Both the position numbers and the translations under genes were made by a program. Under the pieces are notes generated by a model. That model searched no databases, had not been told where the DNA came from, and saw only the letters and a list, made by a program, of their open reading frames with translations. Shown in pieces: positions 15,993 to 38,552 of a DNA stretch of 64,000 nucleotides (the stretch's first letter is position 1; each line of letters begins with the position of its first letter). Source of the stretch: Candidatus Aenigmatarchaeota archaeon (GTDB lineage: Archaea > Aenigmatarchaeota > Aenigmatarchaeia > Aenigmatarchaeales > JAHLMR01); contig JAHLMR010000001.1 of assembly GCA_018920255.1 (NCBI GenBank), positions 23,583-87,582 on the forward strand, read 5' to 3'.

Positions 15993-16049
15993 TAATATAT
16001 AAATAGAAAATTAAGAATAAAAAGATTTTTATTGGCGCCCCTGACGGGA

Positions 16050-16147
16050 TTTTCTCTGAAACTTCTTTACAACTTCTTTAAAAAAGAAGTTGCATCAAGA
16101 AAATTTATCTTTCTTGCTGAAGCTTCTTTCTTAAAGAAAGAAGCTTC
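16050..16147 (-). repeat. 98-nt three-hairpin T-loop insert in tRNA-Arg(TCT)
   Basis: The insert contains three hairpins in a row. H1 arms are GAAGCTTCTTTC and GAAAGAAGCTTC. H2 arms are CAAGAAA and TTTCTTG. H3 arms are CAACTTCTTT and AAAGAAGTTG. A tail ending GAGAAAA follows. It is homologous to the insert in tRNA-Asn, with paired changes that keep the H1 and H3 stems intact. Confidence 0.85.
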
Positions 16148-16169
16148 TTTGAACCCGTGACCTCTTGCT

Positions 16170-16220
16170 TTCTTCTTTAGAGCGCTTCTCATAGCACAGC
16201 TCAAACCTTCTATATTAAAA
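16170..16220 (-). other. Anticodon-loop intron of tRNA-Arg(TCT)
   Basis: This 51-base interruption after A37 is at the canonical archaeal intron position 37/38. Its first bases can pair with the anticodon region (CCTTCTAT with ATAGAAGG). It also contains AAGCGCTCT, an exact complement of AGAGCGCTT in the D-stem/anticodon-stem exon. The pre-tRNA could therefore adopt a fold that competes with the cloverleaf. Confidence 0.75.
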
Positions 16221-16326
16221 TAGAAGGCAAGCGCTCTGTCCAAACTGAGCTACAGGGGCATTTATATAATTATTGATAGATAAACTTTTATAAAATAAAC
16301 ACATAATTAATTTTTGTGTGATTTTT

Positions 16327-33571: not shown

Positions 33572-34084
33572 ATGTTAAATGGAACTTTTGAAAAAAATAA
33601 AGTTATTGTTGAAGGAGAAGGAATAAAAAATTTATTTAATAATGGTTGGTATGGAAATATTGAAAATAATAAACTTATTTTAGACTTATTTGAAGCAGCA
33701 TTTCTTTTAGAACGTGGAAAAATAGAAATTTTTAAGGATAATGAAAAAATTAAAATAGATGAATTTTTTGGCATATGTTGTAATCTCGATAAAAGTTTTA
33801 TGTATAAATATTCAGTATATTCTGATTTAAGAAATAGAGGTTTAATAGTAAGAGCTGGATATATTGGTACAGATTTTAAAGTTTATGAAAGAGGAGCAAA
33901 GCCAAATAAAAATGAAAAAATTAAATGGATTGTTTTTGTTTCATCAGAAGAATATCCTTGTATTTTAGAACAACTTGGAAAAGCAATAAAACTTTCTCAA
34001 AATATAAGAGCAACAGCTGTTTGGGCTGTAGTTGATACTGATTTAGATGTTACATATTATATTATAAATTCAATAATTCCGTGA
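33572..34084 (+). CDS. tRNA-splicing endonuclease-like subunit, probably structural
   Basis: A 170-residue protein with the whole length and pattern of a monomeric-type EndA (N-terminal GWYGNIENNKLILDLFEAAFLLERGK; C-terminal YSVYSDLRNRGLIVRAG then DFKVYERG and WAVVD). By alignment with the Methanocaldococcus EndA pattern, Tyr105 is kept. The catalytic His position is occupied by Lys116 (KNEKIKW). The catalytic Lys in SVRKK is replaced by Ala147 (NIRAT). It therefore looks like a structural partner of the next gene. No ribosome-binding site is visible and a TATA-like AATATTTATTT sits close to the ATG, so it is probably leaderless. Confidence 0.8.
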   Translation: MLNGTFEKNKVIVEGEGIKNLFNNGWYGNIENNKLILDLFEAAFLLERGKIEIFKDNEKIKIDEFFGICCNLDKSFMYKYSVYSDLRNRGLIVRAGYIGTDFKVYERGAKPNKNEKIKWIVFVSSEEYPCILEQLGKAIKLSQNIRATAVWAVVDTDLDVTYYIINSIIP

Positions 34085-34089
34085 GAGTT

Positions 34090-34632
34090 ATGAAAATAAA
34101 AGGAATTTTGCTAAATAATAGAGTAAGAATATATGATTTTAATAAAGCAAAAAGTATTTATGAGGAAGGATATTATGGAAAACTTAAGGAAGATTGTTTA
34201 GATTTATCATTAATAGAAGCATGTTATTTATTAGAAAAAGAAAAAATTATTATAGAAGATAGTAATAAAAACCAATTAAATTTTGAAGAATTTTATAAAA
34301 AGTGTCAAGAAATAGATGAAAGATTTCATATAAAATATATTGTATATTCAGATCTAAGGAATAGAGATTTGCCAACTAGAACAGGGTTTAAATTTGGTTG
34401 TGATTTTAGAGTTTATAACAGGGGAGTAAAACCAATAAAAAGAGGTCCAAAAGCTCCACATGAACACACGAAATGGATAGTTTTTGTAATTCCTTATAAT
34501 TATAAATTTACATTTCCAGAATTTTCTAGAGCAGTAAGACTTGCACATAATATTAGAGCACACATGCTTTGGGCTGTTGTTGATGAAAATAAAGAAGTTA
34601 AATATTTTGAAATAACATTCTTCAAACCATAA
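34090..34632 (+). CDS. endA: tRNA-splicing endonuclease EndA-like subunit
   Basis: A 180-residue EndA homologue that should cut pre-tRNA at bulge-helix-bulge sites. YSDLRNRDLPTRTGFKFG and CDFRVYNRG are family signatures. Tyr109 and His126 fit the catalytic Tyr and His. The third catalytic residue, Lys in the SVRKK element, reads NIRAHML with Ala157 in its place. The start is ATG 34090 preceded by GTGAGA, five bases after the first subunit stops, so both subunits are made together, as in heteromeric alpha2beta2 enzymes. The stop codon directly abuts the tRNA-Phe gene on the other strand. Confidence 0.88.
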   Translation: MKIKGILLNNRVRIYDFNKAKSIYEEGYYGKLKEDCLDLSLIEACYLLEKEKIIIEDSNKNQLNFEEFYKKCQEIDERFHIKYIVYSDLRNRDLPTRTGFKFGCDFRVYNRGVKPIKRGPKAPHEHTKWIVFVIPYNYKFTFPEFSRAVRLAHNIRAHMLWAVVDENKEVKYFEITFFKP

Positions 34633-34771
34633 TGGTGGGGTGGGCGCGACTCCCAGCAACTTCTTTTAAGAAAAGAAGTTGCGAACCTTCTTTCTTAAAG
34701 AAAGGAGGTTTTTTGAACGCGCGACACCACGGTCTTCAGCCGTGTGCTCTCCCGGGCTGAGCTACCACCCC
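34633..34771 (-). tRNA. tRNA-Phe (GAA) with a 62-nt T-loop insert
   Basis: Minus-strand cloverleaf: acceptor GGGGTGG/CCACCCC, D arm GCTC/GAGC, anticodon stem CACGG/CCGTG with loop CTGAAGA (anticodon GAA), T stem GCGCG/CGCGC, discriminator A and encoded CCA. The anticodon loop is intact. The T loop begins TTCAAA, is then broken by 62 bases (34650-34711), and resumes with T60. Without the insert, 77 bases remain including CCA. The CCA end lies one base after the stop of the convergent EndA gene. Confidence 0.92.
34650..34711 (-). repeat. 62-nt two-hairpin T-loop insert in tRNA-Phe
   Basis: Two hairpins in a row followed by TGGGAG. H1 arms are AACCTCCTTTC/GAAAGAAGGTT (one mismatch). H2 arms are GCAACTTCTTTT/AAAAGAAGTTGC (perfect). 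It matches the insert of tRNA-Arg(CCT) at 60 of 62 positions. Confidence 0.9.
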
Positions 34772-34808
34772 GGCTTTTAAAATTATAATTTCAAAAGAAT
34801 TTAAAAGT

Positions 34809-35066
34809 TTATTTTTTAATTTTAATAGAATATATCCAAAAATCTTTTGCAAATTTTTCATTTAAAATATTAATCAACTTTCCTTTTTCTTTCAAATGAT
34901 TTTCACAAATTTTAACTTCCGCAAGATCTTTTTTTATTTGTTTTTTTATATTAGTTTTTGTAATAATAAAAGAATCAAAATATTTATTCTTACAATTTTT
35001 AAAACTACATATATTTACATCTTTTCTAAAATCAAAAATTTTTAATAAAAATTCAATGTCTTCCAT
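34809..35066 (-). CDS. Small uncharacterised protein, possible zinc binder
   Basis: An 85-residue protein beginning MEDIEFLLKIFDF. Cysteines at about 17, 23 and 52 with a nearby His (CSFKNC, CENHLKEKG) could bind zinc. The start is ATG 35066 with GGTGAAATA just upstream; longer versions of this frame would run into the tRNA-Asn gene. It lies 13 bases downstream of tRNA-Asn on the same strand and may be transcribed with it. Confidence 0.55.
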   Translation of the reverse strand: MEDIEFLLKIFDFRKDVNICSFKNCKNKYFDSFIITKTNIKKQIKKDLAEVKICENHLKEKGKLINILNEKFAKDFWIYSIKIKK

Positions 35067-35079
35067 TATTTCACCAAAA

Positions 35080-35268
35080 TGGCGCCTGGGACAGGATTTT
35101 CTTCGAAACTTCTTCGAAACTTCTTTTAGAAAAAGAAGTTTCATCAAGAAAATTTGTCTTTCTTGATGAACCTTCTTTCTTAAAGAAAGAAGGTTTTTTG
35201 AACCTGTGACCTAGTGGTTAACAGCCACTCGCTCTTTGTTGTTGAAATTCCAACTGAGCTACCCAGGC
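35080..35268 (-). tRNA. tRNA-Asn (GTT) with a 100-nt T-loop insert and a long D loop
   Basis: Minus-strand cloverleaf: acceptor GCCTGGG/CCCAGGC, D stem GCTC/GAGC, anticodon stem AGTGG/CCACT with loop CTGTTAA (anticodon GTT), T stem ACAGG/CCTGT, discriminator G and encoded CCA. The T loop TTCAAA...T is broken by 100 bases (35097-35196). The D loop is 21 bases (AGTTGG plus 15), about twice normal, and contains GTTG/CAAC arms, so a further short insert there is possible. The gene is about 189 bases. Confidence 0.9.
35097..35196 (-). repeat. 100-nt three-hairpin T-loop insert in tRNA-Asn
   Basis: H1 arms AACCTTCTTTC/GAAAGAAGGTT, H2 arms ATCAAGAAA/TTTCTTGAT, H3 arms GAAACTTCTTTT/AAAAGAAGTTTC, then a 19-base tail that repeats the H3 right arm (GAAGAAGTTTC). 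It aligns along its length with the tRNA-Arg(TCT) insert. H1 is shared with all four inserts. Confidence 0.88.
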
Positions 35269-35325
35269 ATTAAAATATTTTATTAATTACAAATATTTAT
35301 AAATGCTTACTTTTAATTAATTTAT

Positions 35326-36069
35326 ATGGTAGAAATTGAAAAGGTTATTGCTGATAGTTGGAATGCATATAAAAAAGGATGGAAAAAAATAGGAACATAT
35401 ACTTTTTTTATATTTATTATTATTGGAATTTTATATTTATTAACGCTTTTAAGTTTTACAATTTCATTTTATTTAGGTGGAATTATATGTTTAATATATT
35501 TGTTTATTAGTTTAACTTTACCAGCAGGATTATTACATTTATATAATTTATCTTTTACTAAAAAGAAAATTAAATTAAAATTATTATTTGATTTTATTTC
35601 TAAGAACTGGATTAAAATTTTAAAAGTTTCAATATTGCAATTTTTAATAATTGCATGTATTTTTTCACCAATATTTATTTCATTAGCATTTTATTATTCC
35701 ACTGAATCTTTAATATATCTTTTTTTAGTTATTCTTTTCTCTTTTATTTCATTTTTAATTTCTTTATTTTTTGTCTTTCCAATATACTCTTTTGTTATAG
35801 AAAAATTAAGTACTATTAATTGTATAAAGAGAAGTGTTTATATTGTTAAAAACAATTATTTCAGTTTAATTGTATTATATTTTGCTATAACACTATTAGC
35901 CTTATTTTCATCAATAATAGTATTGCCATTATTTTTATTATTTGTTATTTCAATTATTTTAATACCTTTTGCTATAATTTTAATTATTCTTTATTTATTT
36001 TATTTTATTATACCATTGACATATTTTATTTTTATTTCATTTTATAGAAACGCAATTAAACGTCATTAA
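35326..36069 (+). CDS. Polytopic membrane protein
   Basis: A 247-residue integral membrane protein with about six hydrophobic helices (around 25-45, 50-75, 98-125, 128-155, 180-210 and 212-240). It resembles the generic DUF/glycerophosphodiester-phosphodiesterase-like membrane domain of archaeal small membrane proteins, but no function can be assigned. There is no ribosome-binding site before the ATG, so it is probably leaderless. It overlaps the end of RNase HII by four bases. Confidence 0.6.
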   Translation: MVEIEKVIADSWNAYKKGWKKIGTYTFFIFIIIGILYLLTLLSFTISFYLGGIICLIYLFISLTLPAGLLHLYNLSFTKKKIKLKLLFDFISKNWIKILKVSILQFLIIACIFSPIFISLAFYYSTESLIYLFLVILFSFISFLISLFFVFPIYSFVIEKLSTINCIKRSVYIVKNNYFSLIVLYFAITLLALFSSIIVLPLFLLFVISIILIPFAIILIILYLFYFIIPLTYFIFISFYRNAIKRH

Positions 36070-36731
36070 ATTTTAATACAAAAACCTTCAAGTTTTTTCT
36101 GCTTATTTTCTCCAGATAATTCTATAAAAGTAGCCCATGATTTTCTAATAAATTCTAAATGCTTTTTATTTTTTATACATTCTTTAACAAATTTGATTGT
36201 TTTTTCATCATGAGGATAACCAACTCCAAAATTATAATTAACTTTTTCTTTTATTTTTTCTATTTCTTTATCTCTTTCAACTTTAGCAATTATTGATGCC
36301 GCACTAACAATTGGATATTTTCTGTCAGCAAAATTTTCTGATATTATTTCAGTATCAATTTTTACAAGAGCTTTAAGATACATTTTAAATTTTTCAGTTG
36401 TAACTTGTGGAGCATCAACGTAAACTTTATCTGGTTTTAATGCTCTTATTATTTCTGCCATTCTTTCAGCTTCTATTTTGTTTAAATTCTTTCTTTCTCT
36501 TAATTTATCTATTTCAGAAGCAGAAATTTTTATTATAATCCAATCATTTAAAATTTTTTTAATTTCTTCATATAACATTATTCTTTGATTATATGTTAAA
36601 AGTTTACTATCCTTTACACCAATTTCTTTTAATTTTTCCATTTTTTCTTCATCTGCATATGCTCCAACAATTACTAATGGTCCTATCAACGCTCCACGTC
36701 CAGCTTCATCAATACCTAATATTTTTTTCAT
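36066..36731 (-). CDS. rnhB: Ribonuclease HII
   Basis: A 221-residue enzyme that cuts RNA in RNA-DNA hybrids. GIDEAGRGALIGPLV holds the first catalytic Asp7 and Glu8. VYVDAP near 103 supplies the third acidic residue. SAASIIAKVERD is the conserved family segment with the fourth. Length is normal for archaeal RNase HII. It is monocistronic. Confidence 0.94.
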   Translation of the reverse strand: MKKILGIDEAGRGALIGPLVIVGAYADEEKMEKLKEIGVKDSKLLTYNQRIMLYEEIKKILNDWIIIKISASEIDKLRERKNLNKIEAERMAEIIRALKPDKVYVDAPQVTTEKFKMYLKALVKIDTEIISENFADRKYPIVSAASIIAKVERDKEIEKIKEKVNYNFGVGYPHDEKTIKFVKECIKNKKHLEFIRKSWATFIELSGENKQKKLEGFCIKI

Positions 36732-36784
36732 ATTAAGAATTATAATTAAATATTTTAAATACTTTCAATTTTTATATTTTTAAT

Positions 36785-36871
36785 AGCGGGATGGGGCAGC
36801 CAGGAGTGCCCGTCGGGCTCATAATTTTTTAAGAAACCCGAAGGTCGGACGTTCAAATCGTCCTCCCGCTA
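36785..36871 (+). tRNA. Initiator tRNA-Met (CAT) with a 12-nt anticodon-loop intron
   Basis: Acceptor AGCGGGA/TCCCGCT, D arm GGGC/GCCC, anticodon stem TCGGG/CCCGA with the three G-C pairs of initiators, T stem GGACG/CGTCC with loop TTCAAAT. The anticodon loop is CTCATA + 12 bases (36824-36835) + A. Without it the tRNA is 75 bases. Unlike the other five tRNAs here, CCA is not encoded: the discriminator A is followed by CTA. There is no T-loop insert. Confidence 0.92.
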
Positions 36872-36906
36872 CTATTTTTAAAAAAGTATTAATTGATATT
36901 ATTTTT

Positions 36907-37491
36907 ATGAAATCTCAAGTAGAGCCGATTGTTTTTATCCTATTATTATTAATAGTTTTAATTTTAATTTTAACTGCAATGCTTTGGGGAAGAGATATAA
37001 TTCAAAATAATATAGATGCCGGAAGATTATCTAGAGCAGAACAATTTATTGTAAATTTAGATAATTTAATTCAAAATATCGCACAAAATGGCGGTTCAGA
37101 AAAAATTGAATATCCATTAGATGCAGATATATATATTACCGATGAATGTACTGGTATTACTCCTTTAGAATTAGATAAATGCATTCAAATAGAACAAAAA
37201 AATTCATTATCTTTACAAGAAAAATGGACTTATATAAACACAGAAAATCCAAATAAATATGGAAGTTTTAATGATTCAATAAGTATTATAAGAGAAAAAA
37301 AAGAAGGAGATAAAGTAATAATTCAATTATATTATAGAATTCGTGGAGATTATAATTATACAATTGAATTAGAAAAAATGAGTTATTCATTTAAACCTTC
37401 ATATATTTTAATAGAAAGTGGTGGCACAGAAGTACAAAAAATTATTCAAGGAAATTATATTATTTCTAAAATAAAACTATCATTCATATAA
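36907..37491 (+). CDS. Membrane-anchored exported protein
   Basis: A 194-residue protein with an N-terminal hydrophobic helix (about 7-27, IVFILLLLIVLILILTAML) followed by a mostly soluble exterior domain. MKSQVEPI before it resembles a short class III-like leader (E before the helix), so it could be pilin-related. Two Cys appear in the exterior part (CTG, KCIQ). No family was recognised and the start appears leaderless. Confidence 0.5.
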   Translation: MKSQVEPIVFILLLLIVLILILTAMLWGRDIIQNNIDAGRLSRAEQFIVNLDNLIQNIAQNGGSEKIEYPLDADIYITDECTGITPLELDKCIQIEQKNSLSLQEKWTYINTENPNKYGSFNDSISIIREKKEGDKVIIQLYYRIRGDYNYTIELEKMSYSFKPSYILIESGGTEVQKIIQGNYIISKIKLSFI

Positions 37492-37522
37492 ACTTTTTAT
37501 TTTAATTAATATTATTAATTTT

Positions 37523-38095
37523 ATGATATCTGAAGCATCTGGACAGTTTTTGTTAAGATTTTCAAGACAGGCTATTATAGAATATTTAAAAAATAAAAGA
37601 AAAATAGACATTCCAAAAAATTATCCAAAAGAACTTAATGAGAAAAAAGGAATTTTTGTTACACTACATAAAGAAATTAGGAACGGAATTTATGAACTAA
37701 GAGGTTGTATGGGAATACCATATCCAATTATGCCAATAATAGAAGCAGTTATTGAAGCATCTATTTCTGCTGCAAATGATCCAAGATTTATTAAACTAAA
37801 GGAAGACGAATTAAAAAAAATTAAAATTGAAATTTCAATTTTAACAGAACCAGAATTAATTAAAGTAAAAAAACCAGAAGATTATTTGAAAAATATAAGA
37901 TCAAAAATTGATGGTTTAATTATTAAAAAAGGAATAATGTCTGGATTACTCTTACCTCAAGTTTGGAATGAAGTGAAGGATAAAGAGGAGTTTCTTAACA
38001 TTCTTTGTTATAAAGCAGGCTTATTAAGAGATTCATGGAAAGATCCATCAGTAGAAATATATAAATTTCAAGTTCAAATTTTTAAGGAAAAATAA
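37523..38095 (+). CDS. ammA: AMMECR1-domain protein (AmmA)
   Basis: A 190-residue AMMECR1-family protein, one of the three parts of the widespread but unresolved AmmeMemoRadiSam system. ELRGCMGIPYP is the family hallmark with its invariant Cys. NDPRFIKL and SGLLLPQVW are the other conserved segments. The radical-SAM partner AmrS is encoded at 47.0 kb; a Memo protein is not seen in the window. The start has no ribosome-binding site. Confidence 0.92.
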   Translation: MISEASGQFLLRFSRQAIIEYLKNKRKIDIPKNYPKELNEKKGIFVTLHKEIRNGIYELRGCMGIPYPIMPIIEAVIEASISAANDPRFIKLKEDELKKIKIEISILTEPELIKVKKPEDYLKNIRSKIDGLIIKKGIMSGLLLPQVWNEVKDKEEFLNILCYKAGLLRDSWKDPSVEIYKFQVQIFKEK

Positions 38096-38096
38096 T

Positions 38097-38168
38097 CCGT
38101 CCGAGAAGAAAAAAGACTCGGACGGTGAGGAGGCAACGGGATTCTAGGTATTTTTAAACCTAGAATCC
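38097..38168 (+). ncRNA. GC-rich double-hairpin RNA candidate
   Basis: Two perfect hairpins stand out from AT-rich surroundings. CCGTCCGAG (38097-38105) pairs with CTCGGACGG (38117-38125) across an 11-base purine loop. GGATTCTAGG (38139-38148) pairs with CCTAGAATCC (38159-38168) across a 10-base A/T loop. The linker is TGAGGAGGCAACG. It starts two bases after the AmmA stop codon. It could be a small RNA, a processed 3' UTR element or a strong terminator. In AT-rich archaea, GC-rich islands often mark structured RNAs. Confidence 0.55.
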
Positions 38169-38412
38169 ATATTAACTATTTATAAGTAAAGATATTTAAA
38201 GTTTTCTATTATTATGTTAATAGTTAAACTATAAGTTCAGGTTTTAACTATTATTAAACTTTTTTAAATAAATCTTTCAATATCATTTTTATGCATTGGC
38301 CTACAATTAGCGTAATTCTGCTTGATAAAATTAACAAAGAAATTATTTACTTATTCTTTTGTTAAAAATATTTATATTAATAGTTAAAATATAATTTTTA
38401 ACTAAAATTTAT
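38169..38412. other. Non-coding stretch between RNA candidate and tRNA-Arg(CCT)
   Basis: 244 bases without a convincing gene. The motif TTAATAGTTAAA appears at 38217-38228 and again near 38375-38390, and its complement AACTATT at 38174-38180 and 38246-38252. The last 50 bases contain TATA-like boxes (ATTTATATTAA) that probably drive the tRNA. Nothing else was identified. Confidence 0.4.
38217..38253. repeat. Inverted repeat TTAATAGTTAAAC / GTTTTAACTATTA
   Basis: The arms at 38217-38229 and 38241-38253 pair except for one extra base, enclosing TATAAGTTCAG. It may be an operator or an RNA hairpin. Related half-sites occur on both sides in the same gap. Confidence 0.4.
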
Positions 38413-38552
38413 GCCCCTGTAGCTCAGTTTGGACAGAGCGCTTGCCTCCTAAGCAAGATGTCGCGCGTTCAAAGAACCTTCTTTCTTTAAGAAAGAAGGT
38501 TCGCAACTTCTTTTCTTAAAAGAAGTTGCTGGGAGTCGCGCCAGGGGCGCCA
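38413..38552 (+). tRNA. tRNA-Arg (CCT) with a 62-nt T-loop insert
   Basis: Acceptor GCCCCTG/CAGGGGC, D arm GCTC/GAGC, anticodon stem CTTGC/GCAAG with uninterrupted loop CTCCTAA (anticodon CCT), T stem GCGCG/CGCGC, discriminator G, CCA encoded. The T loop TTCAAA...T is broken by 62 bases (38474-38535). Exons total 78 bases with CCA. The 5' half is nearly identical to tRNA-Arg(TCT), but the T arm and insert match tRNA-Phe instead. Confidence 0.92.
38474..38535 (+). repeat. 62-nt two-hairpin T-loop insert in tRNA-Arg(CCT)
   Basis: H1 arms GAACCTTCTTTC/GAAAGAAGGTTC and H2 arms GCAACTTCTTTT/AAAAGAAGTTGC, both perfect, then TGGGAG. It differs from the tRNA-Phe insert only at the first base and one base in the H1 left arm. 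Confidence 0.92.

Follow-up and report, generated by a model that had tools for sequence, protein, structure and literature searches.

Two near-identical T-loop inserts

The stretch of DNA analysed here (the window) comprises 64,000 nucleotides of contig JAHLMR010000001.1 from a Candidatus Aenigmatarchaeota archaeon (assembly GCA_018920255.1). Within this window, the genes for tRNA-Phe(GAA) and tRNA-Arg(CCU) each hold, between T-loop positions 59 and 60, an insert of 62 nt, read here as an intron:

34633–34771, minus strand: tRNA-Phe(GAA) gene, split at 59/60, its encoded CCA end abutting the endA2 stop codon
34650–34711, minus strand: T-loop intron of tRNA-Phe, 62 nt, with hairpin A (34711–34683), hairpin B (34682–34656) and the 3' tail TGGGAG (34655–34650)
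38413–38552, plus strand: tRNA-Arg(CCU) gene, split at 59/60
38474–38535, plus strand: T-loop intron of tRNA-Arg(CCU), 62 nt, with hairpin A (38474–38502), hairpin B (38503–38529) and the tail TGGGAG (38530–38535)

The intron of tRNA-Phe reads AAACCTCCTTTCTTTAAGAAAGAAGGTTCGCAACTTCTTTTCTTAAAAGAAGTTGCTGGGAG (34711 down to 34650) and that of tRNA-Arg(CCU) reads GAACCTTCTTTCTTTAAGAAAGAAGGTTCGCAACTTCTTTTCTTAAAAGAAGTTGCTGGGAG (38474–38535). They are identical at 60 of 62 bases, the mismatches lying at intron positions 1 and 7, and both are flanked by GCGCG-TTCAAA on the 5' side and T-CGCGC on the 3' side. Together with the T arm, the two inserts align with an E-value of 2e-33 (BLAST). The initial annotation of this DNA had placed both inserts and counted their identities correctly to the base. 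It had also described a T arm common to two otherwise different tRNAs, which agrees with T stems identical at 10/10 positions and acceptor stems matching at only 4/14. The resemblance of the 5' half of tRNA-Arg(CCU) to that of tRNA-Arg(UCU), also pointed out there, was borne out.

A family of hairpin arrays at position 59/60

The two introns belong to a larger family in the genome holding the window (hereafter G000; 552 kb, 25 contigs, 94.6% complete). The tRNA genes of G000 were collected by searches with the insert, the Rfam tRNA model, a T-loop/intron motif and the hairpin core, and the retrieved stretches were then scanned for T arms with inserts. Among about 40 tRNA genes seen, at least 19 contain an insert between positions 59 and 60. 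Its removal leaves a 7-nt T loop with paired T and acceptor stems in these 19 genes, the pairing of both stems being a search criterion. Sixteen of the 19 inserts (53–129 nt) are assembled from common hairpin modules. They occupy tRNA-Thr(GGU), Arg(UCU), Phe, Asn, Arg(CCU), three Ser, Trp, Met, two Gly, Lys and three Leu genes, the isotypes of the last three being provisional. The other three inserts, in tRNA-Gly(GCC), Thr(CGU) and Cys, are short (15–24 nt) and unrelated to the hairpin family. The pair noticed initially is thus part of a family of at least 16 members, four of which (Arg(UCU), Phe, Asn and Arg(CCU)) lie in the window, the two further ones being:

35080–35268, minus strand: tRNA-Asn(GUU) gene, its T-loop intron (35097–35196, 100 nt) belonging to this family
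16033–16259, minus strand: tRNA-Arg(UCU) gene, its T-loop intron (16050–16147, 98 nt) belonging to this family; the anticodon loop holds a further insert

ARAGORN detected a single tRNA in the window because most tRNA genes there are interrupted.

The hairpins of the arrays share the core CTTCTTT..AAAGAAG, extended by one of four outer 4-bp sets (GAAC/GTTC, GCAA/TTGC, GAAG/CTTC or GAAA/TTTC). Over 30 hairpins, the four outer positions form 3.93 of 4 Watson-Crick pairs; this near-perfect complementarity may be due to selection for RNA structure or to correction of palindromes by template switching. The introns of tRNA-Phe and tRNA-Arg(CCU) are a shortened, two-hairpin version of the array. Full-length hairpin A has the centre CTTTAAG in all four introns that contain it on contig C11 and CTTAAAG in the four that contain it elsewhere, a contig-specific distribution that suggests local exchange. 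The most similar pair of introns is Met/Lys, with 110 identical aligned bases, followed by Phe/Arg(CCU). Intron similarity has no relation to acceptor-stem similarity (Mantel p = 0.78). This, together with the size of the genome-specific family, supports the part of the initial annotation that proposed recent copying of introns among tRNAs.

A search for the core found 32 sites per strand of G000, all at T-loop intron loci (a reversed-pattern control gave 1), and located the hairpin family at 59/60 only. Perfect hairpins that combine four outer sets with one core are what a dispersed palindromic element, akin to a miniature inverted-repeat transposable element or a repetitive extragenic palindromic sequence and preferring T loops, would also display. 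Confinement to the splice site, with zero copies of the core outside tRNA T loops in G000, contradicts such an element; neither a target duplication nor a transposase was seen, and we hold this explanation to be highly improbable. BLAST searches with the insert found no match in 58 relatives. A 19-mer covering the T-loop/intron start had eight matches among 84,980 genomes, all of them bacterial, and the four inspected were coding-like and outside tRNAs. tRNA genes are common integration sites, and the inserts could alternatively be scars left by the integration of a virus or plasmid in the T loop. Such a model has been published for the gain of a tRNA intron in Caldiarchaeum (PMC3293823). Sixteen copies with no flanking element seen do not suit a scar, nor does the search of IMG/VR, where one of two family patterns matched three unrelated coding-like stretches, apparently by chance, and the other matched nothing; the probability of this origin appears very small. 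Group I or group II introns were rejected, the inserts being 15–129 nt long and without Rfam intron match in the window. Matches to the Rfam families PyrR and StyR were rejected as well, being hairpin arrays that score under threshold.

Other tRNA inserts were observed in G000. A Leu tRNA (C18:42429–42544, locus L040) has a 30-nt hairpin insert at 53/54, the border of T stem and T loop, and not at 59/60. D-loop inserts occur in Thr, Asn, Met, Pro and Glu/Asp tRNAs (e.g. C1:6175, C25:26140 and C17:2937), some of which also have T-loop or anticodon introns; some of these D-loop inserts are alike in sequence, such as GGTACAAATGCA.AAAGAGCG in two Thr genes. The contig ends C13:1–206, C25:1–109 and C20:23760–23860 contain duplicate tRNA-Ile and similar tRNA-Val genes, which are probably assembly overlaps or repeats.

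A predicted splice-site helix

In the splicing model tested, EndA cuts after TTCRAA (position 59) and before N60, and positions 54–57 pair with intron positions -6 to -3. Over 83 introns at 59/60 from eight genomes, the predicted register yields 3.45 of 4 pairs, with 39 complete helices, and the best other offset yields 2.52. Position 57 covaries with intron position -6, A57 favouring U and G57 favouring C (A57/G57 versus U/C, 20:8 versus 0:23, p = 4e-8). The covariation holds also for unrelated, hairpin-less introns of about 10 nt, which again speaks against a palindromic mobile element. In tRNA-Arg(CCU), the predicted helix joins TTCA (38468–38471) to TGGG (38530–38533), and the predicted splice sites reproduce the exact 62-nt boundaries of both the Phe and the Arg(CCU) introns. 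In folding calculations, the T stem, the 54–57 helix and a 3-nt 3' bulge form at a cost of 0–2.2 kcal/mol. The predicted junctions fit a relaxed bulge-helix-bulge intron with a central 4-bp helix and 3-nt bulges. It is likely that the inserts are bulge-helix-bulge tRNA introns spliced by proteins at 59/60, and that a single hairpin-array family has been copied within G000 into at least 16 tRNA genes.

Tandem endA genes beside tRNA-Phe

The tRNA-Phe gene faces a tandem of two different endA genes (33572–34632), whose products match PF01974 and TIGR00324:

33572–34084, plus strand: EndA1, a beta-like paralogue (170 aa) of tRNA splicing endonuclease that has the catalytic Tyr but neither the His nor the Lys
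34081–34632, plus strand: EndA2, an alpha-like paralogue (183 aa) of tRNA splicing endonuclease that keeps the catalytic Tyr and His and has Ala in place of the Lys

A broad-specificity EndA of the (alpha-beta)2 kind combines a catalytic with a structural subunit and has a specificity loop. Two different subunits are encoded here in tandem, one lacking His and Lys and the other lacking Lys, and they may assemble in this way. The lysine is catalytic in characterised EndA (Methanocaldococcus jannaschii, ARMAN-2) and was reported to be essential. In the alpha-like protein (34081–34632, loci L218–L230), Ala (NIRA.M) stands at this site in G000 and in nearly all relatives sampled from the order and class. 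At 34630–34633, the stop codon of endA2 and the encoded CCA end of tRNA-Phe, a convergent gene, are directly adjacent. Wherever tRNA-Phe and endA were both located in a relative, they share a contig and are no more than about 2 kb apart. Most families of the order have two endA genes; several genera of one family (f3) have one, as does most of the class.

T-loop introns in related genomes

Introns were compared with relatives of the same order that belong to families other than that of G000, and their counts are minimum counts. T-loop introns of 9–79 nt number at least 18 in G001, 15 in G006, 12 in G007, 10 in G009 and 7 in G005. Two endA genes are present in G001, G006, G009 and G005, and one was found in the fragmented genome G007; G003 has two endA genes and one T-loop intron. 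In the single-endA genomes G011 and G012, 43/45 and 43/43 of the tRNA matches exceed the cut-off, the matches being full-length almost throughout, and no T-loop insert was found among the part of their loci that was read, the T loops being intact. Within the genomes sampled, T-loop introns are associated with two endA genes.

Each genome has its own intron sequence family, common to different tRNAs of that genome: a 54-nt family in four different tRNAs of G005, an identical 10-mer in the Lys and Arg(CCU) introns of G009, one 10-mer (a 10-nt family) in three tRNAs of G006 and an identical 39-mer in two Thr tRNAs of G007. Comparison of orthologous tRNA genes reveals that intron presence flips inside one genus. 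The T-loop intron of tRNA-Phe is absent from G001, G009, G011, G012 and G003, and measures 11 nt in G007 (a congener of G001), 10 nt in G006 and 62 nt in G000; that of tRNA-Arg(CCU) measures 37 nt in G001 and is missing in G007. Five tRNA genes of G003 (loci L208, L209, L212, L213 and L214) hold one core of about 35 nt, which lies in the D loop for Ile and Pro, in the anticodon loop for a Gly tRNA and in the variable arm for two Leu tRNAs. A family that occupies such non-homologous tRNA sites implies transposition: these sequences really move.

Origin of the shared T arm

The initial annotation had suggested that intron and T arm were copied together. The data do not require this addition. The G003 orthologue of tRNA-Phe, which lacks a T-loop intron, has a GCGCG/CGCGC T stem, and the intron-less tRNA-Arg(CCU) of G011 and G012 has the GCGCG 5' half, so that common descent can explain the likeness of the two T arms; TTCAAA is moreover a standard archaeal T loop. 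The tRNAs Met and Lys, which have an identical intron, retain their own 3' T-stem halves (CCCGC and CCCGT) as in relatives. Across G000 only, a Mantel test of whole-intron against T-stem similarity was negative. Pooled over genomes, the similarity of introns, especially of their 3' tails, is weakly associated with that of T stems (r = 0.12–0.19, p = 0.0005–0.016): exchange may be easier between similar T arms, or short tracts of conversion may extend into them. Transfer of the T arm along with the intron, from tRNA-Arg(CCU) to tRNA-Phe or the reverse, would account for their 10/10 T-stem identity and for the pooled association. Given that in other families both tRNAs have GCGCG stems even where they lack the intron, it seems rather unlikely.

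Proposed splicing and routes of spread

In the proposed mechanism, the EndA1/EndA2 pair would cut the intron within a bulge on each strand, at the helix formed by positions 54–57 and intron positions -6 to -3, and a ligase would join the exons. Splicing would restore a normal UUCRAAU T loop, and because of this the inserts would be tolerated in almost any tRNA. The hairpin-array family would have been copied into at least 16 tRNA genes and continually homogenised. The most likely route combines the copying of introns into other splice-competent tRNA sites with recombination between existing introns, which would use the shared T-arm and hairpin sequences. Real insertion is favoured by the rapid turnover of introns and by the several sites that one family occupies in G003, recombination between copies by the variants shared on a contig and by the matching of T stems.

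Several points weigh against or limit this account. At the junctions of the long introns, the predicted fold is a relaxed motif, hairpins replacing the second outer helix, and all four helix pairs are present in only 7/19 introns of G000. EndA2 has Ala where M. jannaschii EndA has its catalytic Lys. Removal in the cell by EndA and ligase, which is very probable, is deduced from sequence. Taken over all pairs, introns on the same contig are not significantly more alike (p = 0.145). Finally, with relatives from other families, the ages of single copies cannot be dated.

The initial annotation named gene conversion, reverse splicing followed by reverse transcription, or a mobile mechanism as possible routes. 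Gene conversion at the DNA level among pre-existing 59/60 introns, i.e. concerted evolution without new insertions, is a serious candidate, if something less than probable. Introns at 59/60 are widespread in the order and so offered ready targets; introns tend to be alike where the T stems are; the two tRNAs of each closest pair, Met/Lys and Phe/Arg(CCU), share a contig; and the four C11 introns with full-length hairpin A have a common centre. Conversion of existing introns does not, however, account for a tRNA that has the intron in one member of a genus and lacks it in another, nor does it readily accommodate the non-homologous sites of the G003 family, and the overall same-contig effect fails to reach significance.

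Alternatively, excised and probably circular introns would enter another tRNA or its precursor by reversed splicing, followed by reverse transcription and recombination. Insertion would then occur exactly at a splice-competent site and keep the T stem of the target, as in Met and Lys; the three different positions of one core in G003 and the confinement of the family to tRNA genes also agree with this route. The weak T-stem association is not predicted by it, and reverse splicing by EndA and ligase is not, to our knowledge, an established reaction. We give the RNA and DNA routes roughly equal weight, and perhaps both operate. That the tRNA introns of this order are minimal RNA parasites, reinserted by the splicing machinery and fixed via reverse transcription, each lineage being swept by its own family, is a bolder proposal that we regard as doubtful. 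The presence of one family in at least 16 tRNA genes of G000, and of other, unrelated families in related genomes, indicates that archaeal tRNA introns pass from one tRNA to another within a genome.

The field has yet to settle how protein-spliced tRNA introns are gained. This order exhibits intron gain, loss and copying fast enough to be seen within a genus, with families marked by their sequence so that donor and recipient are traceable, and with introns abundant where endA is duplicated and not found in two single-endA relatives. The mechanism (RNA reinsertion versus DNA conversion) and the co-evolution of enzyme and substrate hence become directly testable. Standard tRNA finders miss genes interrupted in this manner, and such genomes consequently look short of tRNAs.

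Comparison with known systems

Fujishima et al. are said to have described transposed tRNA introns of Thermoproteales in 2010. According to passages of two papers, very similar introns occupy noncanonical positions in different tRNAs of one genome in this group, by a mechanism stated as unknown (PMC4033280, PMC4090602). As in Thermoproteales, near-identical introns occur here in unrelated tRNAs of one genome without following tRNA kinship. The occurrence of one family at different positions, another trait of Thermoproteales, is seen in the relative G003, whereas the G000 hairpin family was found at 59/60 only. Differences are the dominance of 59/60, the perfect-hairpin arrays, the genome-specific families and a host that is a 0.55-Mb archaeon of another lineage. 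Both 59/60 and 53/54 appear among the noncanonical tRNA intron sites in a listing that allows relaxed motifs (passages of PMC4090602).

ARMAN archaea and Nanoarchaeum equitans, whose EndA is of the epsilon-2 or (alpha-beta)2 type, resemble the present case in their reduced genomes, multiple noncanonical introns or split tRNAs and differing EndA units. The reviews consulted on them describe no T-loop families copied within a genome. Literature searches found nothing specific on tRNA introns in archaea of the DPANN group, in which genome size and EndA similarity would place the present order, and no mention of 59/60 introns in as many as half of the tRNA genes of any genome or order. In Caldiarchaeum, a 1.8-kb recombinase-encoding element was implicated in the gain of the tRNA-Thr intron (PMC3293823). 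Both cases represent recent intron gain at a tRNA locus; unlike in Caldiarchaeum, no element was seen at the G000 introns. Overall, intron copying itself is known from Thermoproteales, and what is new is the concentration at one site, the hairpin arrays and the genome-specific sweeps and turnover in a reduced archaeal order.

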